Source: an uncultured Granulosicoccaceae bacterium
GTDB taxonomy: Bacteria > Pseudomonadota > Gammaproteobacteria > Granulosicoccales > Granulosicoccaceae
DNA: 64,000 nucleotides
Direction: 5' to 3'
Assembly (NCBI GenBank): GCA_937957915.1
Contig: CALGNZ010000047.1
Coordinates: 211,106-275,105, forward strand
Part shown: positions 20,442-27,531 of the stretch, piece after piece
How the letters are laid out: the number at the start of each line of letters is the position of its first letter
How positions within the stretch are numbered: position 1 is the first letter of the stretch
The notes under the pieces: generated by a model
Seen by the model: only the letters and a program-made list of their open reading frames with translations
What the model was told of the DNA's origin: nothing
Database searches by the model: none
Position numbers and translations under genes: made by a program

Positions 20442-22058
20442 TTAAAAACTAAGCGTTTCGTTGCGAAAACTACCGTTGCGTTCGGCGTTGTTGCCGTCCA
20501 GTCTGACAACGGAGACGCTGGTCGCCTGTTGCGACGAGAGCCCGAATATCAGCGTGTGTGACTGGTCTGAAAGCAGCCCTTCGCCAACAACAAAGGTTTG
20601 TACGATCTGATTGCCGTCGTCGAGTGTTACGGTTACTTCGGCGCCGACTGACTCAATGACATTGGGTAATTTGACTTTCAGATATCCCTGGTCTCCTGCC
20701 TCGCTCAGGAATACTTTTTGTTCACCAAGTAAGTTAATGTGGATGAGATCCGGGTAACCATCCTGGTTAAAGTCTGCGGTTAGCGGGGTAATGCCGTACT
20801 CGCGGTTCTGTACACCCGCGGCCTTACCGGCATCCATGAATATCGTATTCTCCGCCTGCAGGAAAAAGCGCCCGTCCAGTCTCCACATTGGCAGCTTGTG
20901 CAATGGCCAGCCCTCATAGTTTTCAGATACCACCAGGTCGTCACGGCCGTCGAGATTGAAGTCTTCGAATACTGCGCCCCAGGAAAACTCATAACTTGCA
21001 ACCTGAGCATCTTCTGCAGAGTCTTTAAAGGAAAAGTCGCCCGTGTTTTCGAATAGCAACCAGTCGGTATGGAGTGTTTGGTCGTCTCGAAGGTCGCCGC
21101 GCACCAGTGACATTGGGACCGTGCTGCCGACATTGGAGAAAAAGAAATCGGGCAGACCATCGTTTTTTAAATCAGTGACTGCAATACCCATCGGGTAGGC
21201 AAATTCATCACTGCGCGGATTAGAGATATTTTCAAATTTCAATCCACCTAGGTTTTTCCAGGTGCGTACCTGACCGGTGTCGTGGGCTACGATCAAGTCT
21301 TCCCGTTGATCGTTATCGACATCGATAAATACGCCCATGAAGGTGTTGTGATGATAGTAAAGCCCGGCTTCTTTAGTGATATTGCGAAACTGCCCATCGC
21401 CCTCGTTCAGGAACAGTGCGCTGACGCCACCGTAGTCGCGATTGAAGATGGTTTCTCCCTCTACGTGTTTGCGCGCGATATAGCCTGATACGTACATGTC
21501 GAACAATCCGTCGCGATTAAGATCGGCAACGGCCACTGACAACGGTACTGTTCGTGGGTCGAGTTCGAGTTCGAGTTTTGCCCCGGTGAATGAGCCGTTA
21601 TCGTTGTCGTAGAGAAAAACCCCGGACTGTCTGGTTACCAGTAAATCGTTGTCGCCATCGTGATCAAAATCGAGTGAAGACGCGCTGAAGGTTTTATCGG
21701 GTGTAGTCTTGCTCCAGCCTGTGTCTGAAGTGATATCTGTAAATTTATTATCGACGAATCGGTAGATCGCATCTTGCTGGTTGATGCCGCCGCCAAGGAA
21801 CAGTTCCTCTGTGCCGTCGCCGTCAATATCGATGATTGCACCTGCGGTAAACGGAAGTGTTTTTTCGCCATCGTAGGTGGGTATGAATGCAATGGTTTGA
21901 TTGGTGAACGTTGGCACTATCAGTGAGCCAAGGTCACTCTGATAATCACTGGTCCGGTCGTTTGATGCCATGTAGGTGAGTGCTACAAACAAAGCAGTGA
22001 TTAAAAAAAGCAGGAAGAACGCTATTGACCGCAATAGTCCTTTGATACTCATCGGCAA
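20442..22058 (-). CDS. FG-GAP/VCBS repeat protein, CRTAC1-like
   Basis: Membrane-anchored extracytoplasmic protein of 538 residues. An N-terminal helix (about 10-28) is followed by several FG-GAP beta-propeller blades, each with a calcium-type loop: DIDGDGTEE, DFDHDGDND, DLNRDGLFD, DVDNDQRED, DFNLDGRDD and DFNQDGYPD. The last 75 residues match the ASPIC/UnbV domain (SVGAEVTVTLDDG). Such CRTAC1-type proteins are common in marine bacteria and may bind polymers or metal; no enzymatic role is known. It is read with its neighbours at 19972 and 22107. Confidence 0.88.
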   Translation of the reverse strand: MPMSIKGLLRSIAFFLLFLITALFVALTYMASNDRTSDYQSDLGSLIVPTFTNQTIAFIPTYDGEKTLPFTAGAIIDIDGDGTEELFLGGGINQQDAIYRFVDNKFTDITSDTGWSKTTPDKTFSASSLDFDHDGDNDLLVTRQSGVFLYDNDNGSFTGAKLELELDPRTVPLSVAVADLNRDGLFDMYVSGYIARKHVEGETIFNRDYGGVSALFLNEGDGQFRNITKEAGLYYHHNTFMGVFIDVDNDQREDLIVAHDTGQVRTWKNLGGLKFENISNPRSDEFAYPMGIAVTDLKNDGLPDFFFSNVGSTVPMSLVRGDLRDDQTLHTDWLLFENTGDFSFKDSAEDAQVASYEFSWGAVFEDFNLDGRDDLVVSENYEGWPLHKLPMWRLDGRFFLQAENTIFMDAGKAAGVQNREYGITPLTADFNQDGYPDLIHINLLGEQKVFLSEAGDQGYLKVKLPNVIESVGAEVTVTLDDGNQIVQTFVVGEGLLSDQSHTLIFGLSSQQATSVSVVRLDGNNAERNGSFRNETLSF

Positions 22059-22106
22059 GAACCTGGTTGGTGGGACGGACTTTCAATGGCTATGGTGAAG
22101 CGAGGG

Positions 22107-22778
22107 TCAGACATCAGTGGAATCTAAAGGTTCGTCGCTACGAACCCGCGTTGCAATCAGTACCGAAAGCAGAAAAAAGATGAAAAAGGCCACATTGAGT
22201 GCTATCGGCATGGTGTGCTTGCCAATCGCTGGTACCGCGATGAACAATACAAAATTAGCAACGATCAATAATATCGGGTTAAAAATGGCAATCCAGCGTG
22301 GATAGTGTGAGCGCCCGCCAATGGCCAGCCAGACAATAATTCCAGATAAAACGAGGGTGGTTAGCCGTGTCACCTGAAGCAATGTTTCGTAGCGTGTTTG
22401 ATACAGCGCGATCAAATGATCGGTCAGGTCAGAAGGTGGCATTTGCACCAGTGCCGACACACTGGCCCGTGAACCAATCCACACTGTGCCGACAATAAAA
22501 CCAAAACTCCCGATCAGAAACGCGATAGATGCCCAACGTCGGCTGGCCGGCTTCAGCATTAGATAGATATGGAAACAACCGACCGGGTAAAGAGTCGCCC
22601 CGAAAACACCAAAGAAGTGTCCAACGGTTGAGTGGTTGTCACCCGTGCCCAGCATGAAGTCATAGCTGGTTTCGCTGTATCGCGCCAATTCGTCGTAGTG
22701 CAGCAGGTATTCGCCAATACCAACAAGTATGGCTGCCAGAATGCCCGCCAGTCCGGTAACCACCAGATATTTTTGCAA
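22107..22778 (-). CDS. Multi-pass membrane protein of unknown function
   Basis: Hydrophobic protein of about 223 residues with six or seven predicted helices. Histidine- and charge-bearing loops are at YLLHYDELARYSETSYDF and GDNHSTVGHFFG; PVGCFHIYLMLKP follows. I prefer TTG 22778, preceded by AAGAGA, because the frame upstream to 22946 is not membrane-like and lacks a ribosome site; both starts are TTG. It is 48 bases upstream of the FG-GAP gene and is likely its operon partner. I do not recognise the family with certainty (DUF6796-like is possible). Confidence 0.65.
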   Translation of the reverse strand: MQKYLVVTGLAGILAAILVGIGEYLLHYDELARYSETSYDFMLGTGDNHSTVGHFFGVFGATLYPVGCFHIYLMLKPASRRWASIAFLIGSFGFIVGTVWIGSRASVSALVQMPPSDLTDHLIALYQTRYETLLQVTRLTTLVLSGIIVWLAIGGRSHYPRWIAIFNPILLIVANFVLFIAVPAIGKHTMPIALNVAFFIFFLLSVLIATRVRSDEPLDSTDV

Positions 22779-23069
22779 AGGTGAGTCTCTTTTGGTTTTG
22801 TTCAGTATAGTGATTAAGAGGGTTGCAACTAGCGGAAGCAGTCCACTATTATTGCTCAATCGTCCAGCCAGAGAGCGTGAGTAGCAGCGCCTTTGCTGTT
22901 GCCAGGACACCAGGACACCGCCGCAGGACAGGCCCGTTTCAACCAATGATTTTCGCTACCTATGAATAACTATGTACCCTAAGCCACCTTCAAGGTGTTC
23001 TCGCGGTGGTTCGCTCTTGCTACATGGGCTCCTGCTGTGCACGCTTCGCGATGCCTGTGACTATCAGAC

Positions 23070-24035
23070 ATGTCGTACCTGAACCTTAGAATACTCGGGG
23101 CGCAAGTAGTTCCGGTCACCAGTGATTTTTTGGGTAGCGTAGCACTCCACAGTGCCGATACTGATAGATCCGATAGCGGGTTTTTAGTTCTACCGCTGCA
23201 GAATGGCTTATACGGATCTGATAACCAGCATCAAATGTTAAGCCTGAGTCGGGGAGATCTGCTTGTGTTTCCAGGTAAGCGCACAGGCTATCTGAGCACG
23301 ACACTCAATCCGCCGGCGGAGTTGTTAAATGGTGCCCCTGGCTCTGCCTGTGCAGACCAACGAAACCCGCGCGGGAGTTCACCTGACAATGTAATCAGTG
23401 TTGATCAATTAACCGGAACCGCGGGTGCTGTCATAGAGCAGTTGCAGGCGGTTATCCTGAAGGTTCAGTTGTGTGAAATTGTAAAAGGAGGTGTCGGTGA
23501 CTTTCTGCCTGACTGCTTGCTGCTGACACCGCCCGACAGTAGAAGATCCTATATTATTTCTATTGGCGAACAACTGGCAAAAATTGCCAACCACTCAGAA
23601 GATATTAACAAGGCAAAAGTAGTGAGGTTCACAGAACTTTTGTTAATCGAGGCGCTGGATTTATTTCTTAATCAGGATTCGACAACGAGTCGATTGATGG
23701 CAGGCAGCAAAAACCCGCGCATCGGTGAGGCTATAAGAGCTGTTCATGATAATCCTGAGCAAAACTGGACGGTGTCGCGGCTCGCTGCAATTGCGAATAT
23801 GTCTCGTTCTCTGTTTGCCATTCAGTTTAAGGAAGCCTGTGGGGAAACACCATTGAGGTATGTCAGGCAATGTCGAATTCATCGAGCGAAGCTTTTACTG
23901 ACGGAATCAGTCGCACCCTTAGAACAGATTGCTGATCAGTGTGGATATGCCTCGCAGTCTGCGTTTATAAAAGCGTTCAGCGAAGCGATTGGCTATTCGC
24001 CCGGGCGTTGGCGAAATCTGCAAAAAAGCAATTGA
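23070..24035 (+). CDS. AraC family transcriptional regulator
   Basis: Regulator of 321 residues. The N-terminal two thirds is an AraC-type cupin_6 ligand domain (LSRGDLLVFPGK). The C-terminal 100 residues are the double helix-turn-helix: DNPEQNWTVSRLAAIANMSRS, FKEACGETPLRYVRQCRIHRA, LLTESVAPLEQIADQCGYAS and SEAIGYSPGRWR. It lies next to the divergent membrane-protein genes, so these are candidate targets. The ATG at 23070 has no strong ribosome site. No inducer is evident. Confidence 0.92.
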   Translation: MSYLNLRILGAQVVPVTSDFLGSVALHSADTDRSDSGFLVLPLQNGLYGSDNQHQMLSLSRGDLLVFPGKRTGYLSTTLNPPAELLNGAPGSACADQRNPRGSSPDNVISVDQLTGTAGAVIEQLQAVILKVQLCEIVKGGVGDFLPDCLLLTPPDSRRSYIISIGEQLAKIANHSEDINKAKVVRFTELLLIEALDLFLNQDSTTSRLMAGSKNPRIGEAIRAVHDNPEQNWTVSRLAAIANMSRSLFAIQFKEACGETPLRYVRQCRIHRAKLLLTESVAPLEQIADQCGYASQSAFIKAFSEAIGYSPGRWRNLQKSN

Positions 24036-24105
24036 TGACACCGAACGACCGCGTTCAGATGTGGGTTCCTGATTCACGCCTCGCCGATTTTCAAATGTAA
24101 TAATA

Positions 24106-24125
24106 TACTGTATATAAAAACAGTA
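24106..24125. promoter_or_regulatory. LexA/SOS box
   Basis: TACTGTATATAAAAACAGTA: the core CTGT-N8-ACAG (24108-24123) with flanking TA on both sides. From memory it is the same 20 bases as the E. coli umuDC operator. The last two bases overlap a perfect -10 element TATAAT (24124-24129), so bound LexA would block the promoter of the gene at 24171. Confidence 0.85.
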
Positions 24126-24129
24126 TAAT
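24124..24129 (+). promoter_or_regulatory. -10 element of SOS-controlled gene
   Basis: Perfect TATAAT. The expected start point is near 24136, which gives a leader of about 35 bases before ATG 24171 and excludes the shorter upstream ATG at 24131. The -35 region (around 24101) is weak. Confidence 0.65.
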
Positions 24130-24170
24130 AATGCCGATCTTCATCAACTTGCTGAGAATACGGGAGCCGC

Positions 24171-24485
24171 ATGAGCCTGACAGAGTCGCAAGAGAAGTTC
24201 ATCGAAAAGGTGTTGTTGTCTATTCCCAGAGTTATTAAGGCCTGTGCTGAGCAGGGAGGTAAGGCGTCACTGATTCTGGGCCGAAAACAAGTAGGTAAAC
24301 ACATCATAAAGGTGAGTGTTGTTGCGGAGCGTGAGCAGAGTTTTAAAGCGCCGCTGCAAAGCTATTCAGATAAAACACCTGCCGACTCGGTTTTAAAAGT
24401 GACCGTCGCCGGAGATACCAGTAAGGCTCAAACTGTACACAAAAATCATCGGCGCAGCAGTCGATGGCAAAAGCCCGTATTTTAG
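24171..24485 (+). CDS. SOS-box controlled small protein, unknown
   Basis: Protein of 104 residues of no recognised family. ATG 24171 has GGGAG at 5 bases. The first 45 residues look helical (ESQEKFIEKVLLSIPRVIKACAEQ, shown in two parts by the Pro), with one Cys; the last 25 are basic and low-complexity (HKNHRRSSRWQK). There is no signal peptide or membrane segment, so it is cytoplasmic. It is a single-gene unit 46 bases behind a near-perfect LexA box. It does not resemble SulA, YebG, DinI, ImuA or UmuD in motif or length. The SOS control is read directly from sequence; the function is unknown. Confidence 0.75.
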   Translation: MSLTESQEKFIEKVLLSIPRVIKACAEQGGKASLILGRKQVGKHIIKVSVVAEREQSFKAPLQSYSDKTPADSVLKVTVAGDTSKAQTVHKNHRRSSRWQKPVF

Positions 24486-24524
24486 ATCTGCTCTGTAATA
24501 TGCGCTGTATCTTTAGCCCGATTC

Positions 24525-25265
24525 TTAGTCAGTAGTAACAGGGCGGCAAAAGTATTCTGCATCAGTGGCAGCCTGCCATTGCCAGGCAGGTTCGTTAAGC
24601 ACTCGTAAAAACTGTGTGTCATTGACCGGAGCGGTAATTGTCACAGCCTGACTGGAACCCGGTTCTGTCAGGCAGATAGAGTGTGCGTGTAGCAGCAGGC
24701 GCCTGCATTGATAGTGACTGGCAAAAAATTTGTTGTGTGGAGTTTTGCCATAGTTGGTGTCTCCGACTATCGGGTGGCTGATATGCTTCATATGCAGCCT
24801 GATCTGATGGCGGCGTCCGGTTTGCGGCTGAACCTGCAGCAGGCTGTAGCGCGTCGTCGGATATCGATCGACGTAATATGGCAACTCAATTGTCGCAGCT
24901 ACTGTGTAGCGAGTAATTGCATCTGCCGGTTTTTTATCTTTTGCGTCACGGTCGCGCACAGCGTGGTCTATTATGCCGCCGTCTTCGCAATGGCCTCGAA
25001 CCACAGCCAAATAGTTTTTCTGTACCTGTGCGTTTTCAAACTGGGCTGACAGACTGGTAGCGGCCGCTTTAGACAACGCGAACACCAGCACGCCCGAGGT
25101 TGGTTTATCGAGCCGATGAACCGGGTATAGATAATGCCCGGTTTGGTCACGCAGGCTGCGCAGTGCGTTGTTCTGCTCGTGCCGATCTAGTGCACTACGA
25201 TGGACCAGCAAACCAGAGGGTTTGTCTATCGCAATCAGGTGCTCGCTTTCGTACAGAATCTTCAG
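24525..25265 (-). CDS. tRNA pseudouridine synthase, TruC-like, non-canonical start
   Basis: RluA-family pseudouridine synthase; TruC converts U65 of tRNA. The active-site motif YPVHRLDKPTSG with the catalytic Asp is intact, as are VQPQTGRRHQIRLHMKHI and HAHSICL. A conserved N-terminal block KILYESEHLIAIDKPSGLLVH precedes the first ATG/GTG/TTG: TTG 25211 would remove it. The family starts exactly at the CTG at 25265 (LKILYE, matching the M-L-E-I-L-Y of TruC). So either CTG is used or the start was lost. It overlaps no other gene but lies 42 bases beyond the isomerase stop. Confidence 0.85.
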   Translation of the reverse strand: MKILYESEHLIAIDKPSGLLVHRSALDRHEQNNALRSLRDQTGHYLYPVHRLDKPTSGVLVFALSKAAATSLSAQFENAQVQKNYLAVVRGHCEDGGIIDHAVRDRDAKDKKPADAITRYTVAATIELPYYVDRYPTTRYSLLQVQPQTGRRHQIRLHMKHISHPIVGDTNYGKTPHNKFFASHYQCRRLLLHAHSICLTEPGSSQAVTITAPVNDTQFLRVLNEPAWQWQAATDAEYFCRPVTTD

Positions 25266-25306
25266 TGGCGAGGCAGGCTGCTCCGCCGGTACGGCCGGAG
25301 ATTCGG

Positions 25307-26203
25307 TCAGCTGACTGTCTCGCTGGGCTGGCGGCTGCTGACAGAGACGGCCTGTTCAATCACTTCGTTTTCCAGCCGTGTCCAGATATCTTCAATCCAT
25401 CCTTTCATGATTAAAGACTCCTGCCATCGGTCAGACATTTCCATGCCGTCCGGGCCCGTCATGGCATAGTCAGGTGGCGCAAGCTCGGTTTGAAAGATCA
25501 GACTGTCGTCGTCGCCGGCGCGTTTTCTCCAGTAGCGAAAGCCCGCTTCCCACCAGTCGAGAAACTGGACTACCCACTTTTGGTGTTGCGGAAACTCGAG
25601 TTGCAGTTGTATCTGCTGTGCCGATGCTACGCGCCCCTGAAATGCATTTGCACGCCTCAGGATTTTGTCGATGAGCTCCTGCTCTTCTTTTCGCAGCGGA
25701 AGTGCGAGTTCGCGATCAACGACGTAGTGCGACAAATCAACGCTGAGCTTCATGTCAGGCACAGCTTCAAGTAGCTGGGTGGTGTAGCTGAGGTCGTTGG
25801 TCACAGAGTTGCGGTGGGTTTCAAATTCAATATTGATTCCCTCTTTTTCTGCTTCCTCCATCCAGTCCTGAACCATGAGCGACGCTTCGTCGACGCTGCT
25901 GGGTATTACCTGGGCGATGATATTGACTACCTTTGCGTCAAACTCACGTGCCATTTCGAGTACCGGCAACATATCTTCCATGCTATGTGGAAATGCGTTG
26001 ATAACGCAGCCGAGTTCGAACTGCTTGAACATCGGCAGTGTTTTGTAGGCAGTGTCCCGATCTGCGGCAGCCAGATTAATCGCCATACCGGTATAACCGG
26101 CATTTCTGACGAGTTCAAATGCCTTCTCAGTCGAGAAAGCTTCATGGCTGCCCCTGCCGGCATCCATGGCCCACAGTGATTGGTAAAGTTCTAGTCGTGG
26201 CAC
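25307..26203 (-). CDS. Sugar phosphate isomerase/epimerase (TIM barrel)
   Basis: Xylose isomerase-like TIM barrel protein of 298 residues. The pattern of alternating strands and the metal-type acidic/His residues are visible: INIEFETHRNSVT, SVDLSHYVVDR and FQTELAPPDY. The family includes 2-keto-myo-inositol dehydratase, hydroxypyruvate isomerase and epimerases, so the exact substrate cannot be given. It shares the strand with the TruC-like gene and is a two-gene run with it. The start ATG 26203 has the sequence GGCATTGT upstream and no strong ribosome site. Confidence 0.85.
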   Translation of the reverse strand: MPRLELYQSLWAMDAGRGSHEAFSTEKAFELVRNAGYTGMAINLAAADRDTAYKTLPMFKQFELGCVINAFPHSMEDMLPVLEMAREFDAKVVNIIAQVIPSSVDEASLMVQDWMEEAEKEGINIEFETHRNSVTNDLSYTTQLLEAVPDMKLSVDLSHYVVDRELALPLRKEEQELIDKILRRANAFQGRVASAQQIQLQLEFPQHQKWVVQFLDWWEAGFRYWRKRAGDDDSLIFQTELAPPDYAMTGPDGMEMSDRWQESLIMKGWIEDIWTRLENEVIEQAVSVSSRQPSETVS

Positions 26204-26634
26204 AATGCCTCCGTTTGGGCATACCGCAAGGCCCGATCATATCAATGCGCACACCGCTCATGGCGTGCAGGTCGCGATTATAACTAATTGGGGCATTTAC
26301 AACCGAATCAATGACAATTAAGCGAACTTGGTCAACAGCCGATCCTGGCGTGTTACCATCGGCCCGCTTACACCAGTCGAGGGTAGTCGGTGCGGTGCTC
26401 CGATCGCGGGCGCAGCGGTTTCTGCCTGACATTGTCACACTTTATTAATACTCGGTTAACAATGGTTTACCAAATGGGCCTTGTGCTTGGGTATCCGCTA
26501 GACGAGAATTCAGCGAAGGGTCAGGCGTGAGTTGCTTGCCTGCGGTTTGGGTAGACTAGCAAACTCGGGGATTCCCGCCTTTCAGTACACGTTGTTAATT
26601 TCAGAGCCTGATTTTCAAAAAAGGAAATTCACTT
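26204..26634. other. Intergenic region upstream of aquaporin
   Basis: About 430 bases between divergent genes, carrying the aqpZ-like promoter. Nothing else convincing; a run TTAATACTCGGTTAACAATG (near 26443) is AT-rich and could be part of a promoter, but I cannot assign the -35 and -10 elements. Confidence 0.4.
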
Positions 26635-27531
26635 ATGCATTTTCACAATAAATATCTTGCCGAGATGTTCGGCACTTTCTGGCTGGTGCTGGGCGGCTGT
26701 GGCAGTGCCATCTTCGCTGCCACTTTTGCCGGTGACGCTGGTATCAATATCGGTCTGGTGGGGGTTTCACTCGCATTCGGTTTAACTGTAATGACTATGG
26801 CCTACGCGGTAGGACACGTGTCCGGTGGACACTTTAATCCTGCCGTATCAATTGGCTTATGGGTCGGTGGTCGTTTTGGTTTTGCACACCTGATTCCCTA
26901 TATCGTTTTCCAGGTGCTGGGTGCAATCGCGGCTGCTTTCGTTCTGCAGTGGTTGGTTACCGAGGCGGGCACTACCGCTGCTGCTGAGGCATTGAATGCC
27001 GGTGCAGCGCCTACTCTGGCATCAAACGGCTACGCTGAAGCATCTCCTGGCAAGTACTCAATGGAAGCTGTCATCGTCATGGAAGTAATCATGACTGCCT
27101 TTTTCCTGATCATCATCATGGGTGCCACAGATGAGCGTGCTCCAGCTGGTTTCGCACCGATTGCAATTGGATTAGGTCTTACCCTGATTCACCTGATTTC
27201 TATTCCAGTTTCTAATACTTCTGTTAACCCTGCTCGAAGCACGGGTCCTGCACTGATATCCAAGTTTTTCGGTGATGGCGACAGCACAGCATTGACTCAG
27301 TTGCCAGTATTCTGGGCAGCGCCAATCGTCGGTGCAGTATTAGGTGCCATTTTGTATCGATTGATCGTTTCAGGTGCCAGCCCGGTTGAAAAAACGGCTG
27401 AGCGAGTAGAAGTACGTGAGCCTGAGTATCGCGAGCGTGTTGAGTATCGTGACCGTGGCGACTACCGTGATGATCATCGCAGTGAGTATCGTGACGAGTA
27501 CCGTACTGAGTATCGTGACGAGCGCTACTAA
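26635..27531 (+). CDS. Aquaporin with tyrosine/arginine-rich C-terminal tail
   Basis: Membrane water channel (AqpZ type) of 298 residues with six helices and both NPA motifs, [10 protein letters not shown] and [10 protein letters not shown]. The selectivity-filter region (R after the second NPA) is present, consistent with a water channel rather than a glycerol facilitator. The body ends near residue 255 where E. coli AqpZ ends. The extra residues 256-298 form a degenerate repeat of E-Y-R-D/E ([17 protein letters not shown] then [15 protein letters not shown]), highly charged with seven Tyr. It is followed by a strong terminator. ATG 26635 has AAAAAGGAAA 6-10 bases before. Confidence 0.93.
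27400..27528 (+). repeat. Degenerate 12-bp repeat encoding EYRD tail
   Basis: The DNA of the aquaporin tail repeats GAGTATCGTGAC-like units (for example GAGTATCGCGAG, GAGTATCGTGAC, GAGTACCGTACT). It ends at the stop codon, so the tail probably grew by tandem duplication at the gene's 3' end. Confidence 0.7.

Follow-up and report, generated by a model that had tools for sequence, protein, structure and literature searches.

Introduction

Most of what is known about effectors of the SOS (DNA damage) response comes from a few model bacteria. They include SulA, an SOS-controlled small soluble protein that inhibits cell division, and the products of short genes under LexA control such as DinI and YebG. 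In Escherichia coli the first of the umuDC genes is preceded by a 20-base LexA box. Here we analyzed a 64,000-nucleotide stretch of DNA (the window) from an uncultured Granulosicoccaceae bacterium (GenBank assembly GCA_937957915.1, contig CALGNZ010000047.1, positions 211,106 to 275,105), in which a gene for a 104-amino-acid (aa) protein follows a LexA operator, or SOS box, with the identical 20 letters. The original prediction, made from the letters of the window, had described the gene as SOS controlled and its product as a member of an unknown family. By comparison with its relatives, we find that it belongs to a previously unclassified family of small LexA-boxed proteins and is very probably under LexA control.

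The product encoded behind this operator is not UmuD or UmuC. It is similar in size to E. coli DinI (81 aa) and YebG (96 aa) but shows no detectable relation to either, with no Pfam match and hhalign probabilities of 0.1% and 0.5%, respectively; nor was a relation to SulA detected (no Pfam match up to E 10, hhalign probability 0.3%). The window protein had no match in Pfam or NCBIfam, and no known fold or family in the libraries searched matched it convincingly, in line with the unknown family of the original prediction. DdrR, the SOS corepressor of Acinetobacter (PMC11332147), is likewise a small, lineage-restricted SOS protein, a likeness drawn from its description only.

LexA boxes ahead of the family genes

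A profile search of Granulosicoccaceae genomes yielded 51 family genes, the window gene included, in 36 of 48 genomes. For each of them we scored the best CTGT-N8-ACAG site within the 300 bp upstream, and counted as a box any site with at least 7 of the 8 core letters and an AT-rich centre (at least 6 of 8). A perfect core was found ahead of 35 of the 51 genes and a box ahead of 42, whereas random 300-bp stretches from the same loci held a perfect core in 93 and a box in 120 of 9,102 cases, and the upstream regions of recurring neighbour genes held them in 2 and 1 of 140, respectively. These control genes were neighbours whose open reading frame (ORF) recurred in at least two loci, leaving out those whose upstream region overlapped the family promoter or was shorter than 150 bp. 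The starts of relatives were set by script, usually at the ATG nearest to the match, and that of L015 by hand; the L001-L030 family genes were scored with these starts, and the scoring did not extend to P0002-P0015, the closest relatives. At least one boxed member was present in 29 of the 36 genomes with the family. Among the nine genes counted as lacking a box, L012 and L096 have a good core with a less AT-rich centre and the other seven reach 6 of 8 letters; six of these seven have degenerate, AT-rich box-like sites, and L099 has none. The search for LexA boxes ahead of homologs that the original prediction had proposed thus argues for LexA control.

In the window, the operator TACTGTATATAAAAACAGTA has a perfect core, CTGT-N8-ACAG, flanked symmetrically by TA, as originally read, and the stated identity with the umuDC operator holds for all 20 letters of the site preceding umuD in E. 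coli K-12 MG1655 (L234:229-248). The promoter is less clear than had been stated: a TATAAT does overlap the operator by two bases, but no good -35 element accompanies it, and a consensus promoter scan of positions 23900-24700 returned zero sigma-70-type sites at threshold. The core by itself is weak evidence, as it is not rare in the 5.38-Mb assembly (142 CTGTN8ACAG sites versus 68 for the reversed pattern; 11 versus 6 for ACTGTN8ACAGT). This abundance and the lack of a good -35 would suit a box that arose by chance or serves another purpose, leaving the small gene outside LexA control. We consider this very improbable. The operator is not the promoter of the AraC-type gene upstream, since that gene points towards it and ends 70 bases before it, and conservation ahead of family genes raises the operator above chance.

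We infer that LexA binds the operator because the only lexA of the window genome (G000) has a similar site of its own upstream (TATTGTATATAAACACAGTA, 7 of 8 core letters, one letter poorer than the window operator), and because sites of this kind also occur at the lexA and recA loci of relatives. Within the same taxonomic family, sites with at least 7 of 8 letters occurred at 16 of 30 recA loci and at 16 of 19 parsed lexA loci, the latter being what remained of 30 after 11 were dropped by an ORF filter, with two of those kept (L208 and L223) looking like wrong ORFs.

Elsewhere in the window genome, a very good LexA-like site, ACTGTTATTATATACAGT, lies at L039:1501-1518 (G000:C90:18348-18365) beside an ORF of 103-114 aa without a Pfam match. 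The 267-aa ORF that follows lexA (L042:1501-3356) looks like ImuA. Genomes of the window's genus (g1) mostly have one strong LexA match; in genus g5 (Granulosicoccus), many genomes have a second LexA-like protein, with a frame of ∼240-260 aa, besides the usual one.

Layout of the locus

The features of the locus are collected in Table 1. The small gene appears to stand alone, because the AraC-type gene ends upstream of the operator and the pseudouridine synthase gene downstream is convergent. A second SOS gene adjoining it was considered and rejected on the identity of these two neighbours. No RNA gene was found at Rfam gathering scores within 22000-27000.

Table 1. Features at the small LexA-boxed gene, in window coordinates
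Feature	Position	Strand	Basis
LexA operator (SOS box) TACTGTATATAAAAACAGTA	24106..24125	+	Read from sequence; same letters as E. coli umuDC operator
TATAAT, possible -10 element	24124..24129	+	Read from sequence
GGGAG, probable ribosome binding site	24162..24166	+	Read from sequence; four bases 5' of ATG at 24171
104-aa gene of the LexA-boxed family	24171..24485	+	ORF, ATG start, homologs
Codons 5-53, predicted helix (5-28) and hairpin (31-41/44-53)	24183..24329	+	AlphaFold2; 61-aa relative modelled alike
Codons 60-65, APLQSY, conserved motif after the fold	24348..24365	+	Alignment
Codons 98-104, RWQKPVF, tail common to the window clade and the L002-L006 branch	24462..24482	+	Alignment
AraC-type regulator (HTH_18), upstream neighbour, outside the unit	23070..24035	+	Pfam
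RNA pseudouridylate synthase, convergent downstream neighbour	24525..25211	-	Domain match

Extent of the family

A search with the single window sequence returned 15 protein clusters, all covering the full query; one was the window protein, and since the other 14 match over its whole length at 61-88% identity, we take the 104-aa ORF to be real. The homolog search envisaged in the original prediction has therefore turned up conserved homologs, and its counter-case of no conserved homologs anywhere does not apply. A 33-row profile matched 221 proteins at E ≤0.001 and a second profile matched 168 at E 0.01, the best 120 of each being listed. Among the matches listed, source names were forms of "hypothetical protein"; several belonged to Granulosicoccus (P0046 to Granulosicoccus antarcticus by its source name), and one record was labelled Porticoccaceae. 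The titles and abstract openings listed by literature searches do not name the family, which says little.

The gammaproteobacterial scope that had been expected of the homologs proved too wide. Beside the 36 of 48 Granulosicoccaceae genomes, a class-wide sample of 369 genomes had profile matches in three, of which two are Granulosicoccaceae, and all 20 named-record loci were titled Granulosicoccus or Granulosicoccaceae. The one class-level match outside Granulosicoccaceae, L092, was set aside as weak (E 1.2e-4), with no box seen in the stretch read. When the twelve genomes without a match were searched again with a larger profile, one match at E 0.25 was returned, which is not credible. Among the genomes sampled, the family thus appears nearly confined to Granulosicoccaceae. 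Two or three copies were present in 10 of the 36 genomes.

The main rival to the repair role discussed below is a LexA-controlled division checkpoint, acting like SulA without kinship to it. A strong operator and a small soluble product speak for such a protein, and no short SulA was detected: the SulA profile matched in 29 of 48 genomes, always in frames of 227-318 aa, which are probably the related ImuA (E. coli SulA has 169 aa), and it matched nothing in G000. Absence by profile is no proof of absence, however, the hhalign comparison with SulA found no similarity, and the patchy occurrence, with up to three copies per genome, would be unusual for a checkpoint. We therefore judge it an unlikely role.

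Predicted structure and conserved motifs

AlphaFold2 modelling with 132 sequences gave a predicted template modelling score (pTM) of 0.43; means over blocks of ten residues were 85-93 for residues 1-50 and 45-78 for the rest. The same fold was predicted for a 61-aa relative (mean predicted local distance difference test score, 87.8). The protein is thus predicted to consist of a helix and a beta-hairpin, after which come a PL-containing motif and a tail that is disordered. The analysis also considered a MADS-box-like DNA-binding fold, in which a helix and two strands take the MADS arrangement. In the alignment of 132 members, which combines P0002-P0120, 12 loci and the window protein and leans to high-scoring members, the motif [ANS]PLx[STN][HY] was present in 126; the six exceptions include all four aligned members of a short branch linked to FAN1 (see below). 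The tails vary from branch to branch: the sequence RW[QH]K[PS][IV]F lies close to the end of 19 of the 132, and many others have basic ends. Basicity is general in the alignment, with a median isoelectric point (pI) of 10.5, a pI of at least 9 in 119 members and at least five K or R within the last 12 residues in 83; the window protein has a pI of 10.1 and a charge of +9.8.

Branches and gene neighbourhoods

A tree of 55 members, built from few columns and with 26 of 52 inner branches well supported, separates the window clade, the L002-L006 branch with its similar tail, the N-terminally extended L102-L107, the divergent L017/L024 pair together with L105, a short paralogous branch of 11 genes, and a Granulosicoccus branch with G004 and G005. 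Ten of the 11 short-branch loci share a downstream ORF cluster on the strand of the small gene, with an opposing ORF in between at one of them; in nine loci, the ORF of this cluster begins 223-369 bp from the start of the small gene. The cluster member checked was the crosslink-repair nuclease FAN1 (VRR_NUC and FAN1_HTH), and in five of the loci a PD-(D/E)XK-type ORF comes next. The members upstream of a FAN1-type ORF are L093, L094, L096, L098, L101, L012, L020, L021, L023 and L095. An operon with FAN1 as a general rule was rejected, as 32 of 37 FAN1 loci had no family gene upstream (5 of the 37 had less than 420 bp of upstream sequence).

A different neighbourhood recurs in Granulosicoccus. 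A FleQ-type ORF lies downstream in 20 of 49 loci, namely, 19 of the 20 named-record Granulosicoccaceae loci and G004, often together with FlgM and a MinD/ParA-like ATPase and, in five loci, a sigma factor. Many of L016 and L072-L090 show the order HSP20, family gene, FlgM, FleQ, MinD/ParA-like and sigma factor; these neighbour clusters were assigned by Pfam on one member each (FleQ, MinD/ParA-like, FlgM, sigma-70 regions 2-3 and HSP20), and we take the MinD/ParA-like protein to be FleN and the sigma factor to be FliA. This arrangement raises the possibility of a damage-induced motility regulator that couples the SOS response to flagellar control through these neighbours. Such synteny within a genus may, however, reflect mere inheritance, and the neighbours of the window gene and of the other branches are unrelated, so that we regard this role as quite improbable.

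A leader element in two branches

In the L002-L007 and L102-L107 branches, the pattern GTCAGYGCAGCYRC-N4-18-GTGG is located directly before the start codon, with near variants in L002 and L006. Across seven whole genomes it had nine exact sites, all of them immediately preceding a family gene, while the reversed pattern had one; a whole-genome pattern search found none in the window's genome. The arms of this element could pair and hide the start codon. Eleven leaders folded singly gave z-scores from -1.60 to 0.08, not convincingly better than shuffles, and folding energy alone is no proof of a hairpin; the leader of the window gene folds no better than shuffles.

The element brings to mind SOS toxins such as TisB, which are under translational control. 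Together with the tight-looking operator, its restriction to sites ahead of family genes in the genomes searched could point to an SOS-induced toxin or growth-arrest peptide that LexA keeps silent, with a leader hairpin as a second silencer in two branches. Against this, the product is predicted to be a charged, soluble protein with a folded core, not a membrane peptide; no toxin family matched the window protein convincingly, and the window gene has neither the element nor a leader that folds well. We think a toxin quite unlikely, and both it and the motility regulator are less likely than a division checkpoint.

Discussion

We tentatively favour, at somewhat less than an even chance, the view that the window gene belongs to a new Granulosicoccaceae family, is repressed by LexA, and is made after DNA damage as a basic, nucleic-acid-associated repair accessory. 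LexA would hold the gene off at the operator, and RecA-driven cleavage of LexA would free the promoter, leading to a burst of protein after DNA damage. The product would form the predicted helix and beta-hairpin, possibly pairing through its sheet, with the APLxSY/H motif and the basic tail as predicted docking elements, and might then attach to nucleic acid or to a repair complex where DNA is damaged; this last step is a guess.

If control by LexA is granted, the repair role itself comes close to an even chance. We propose it because of the charge of the protein, the presence of FAN1 next to one branch, and SOS control. These three indications come from different branches, however, and the role is a guess.

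A broader possibility, which we hold to be doubtful, is that Granulosicoccaceae have evolved an SOS effector family of their own, with helix-hairpin proteins that multiplied into paralogous branches, up to three per genome and mostly under LexA, two of the branches with a second, family-specific leader switch at the start codon, and each with its own damage-response output. As part of the same claim, the outputs would be FAN1 crosslink repair, flagellar control and a third acting through the RWxKPxF tail.

SOS effector genes are a known kind, whereas this protein family, its copy number and the leader element in two of its branches are without counterpart in the libraries searched. The analysis provides a short list of directly testable genes and operators in a lineage from which Granulosicoccus antarcticus, among others, has been sequenced. 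The existence of a LexA-boxed family for which no known relative was detected suggests that part of the output side of the SOS response has yet to be mapped.
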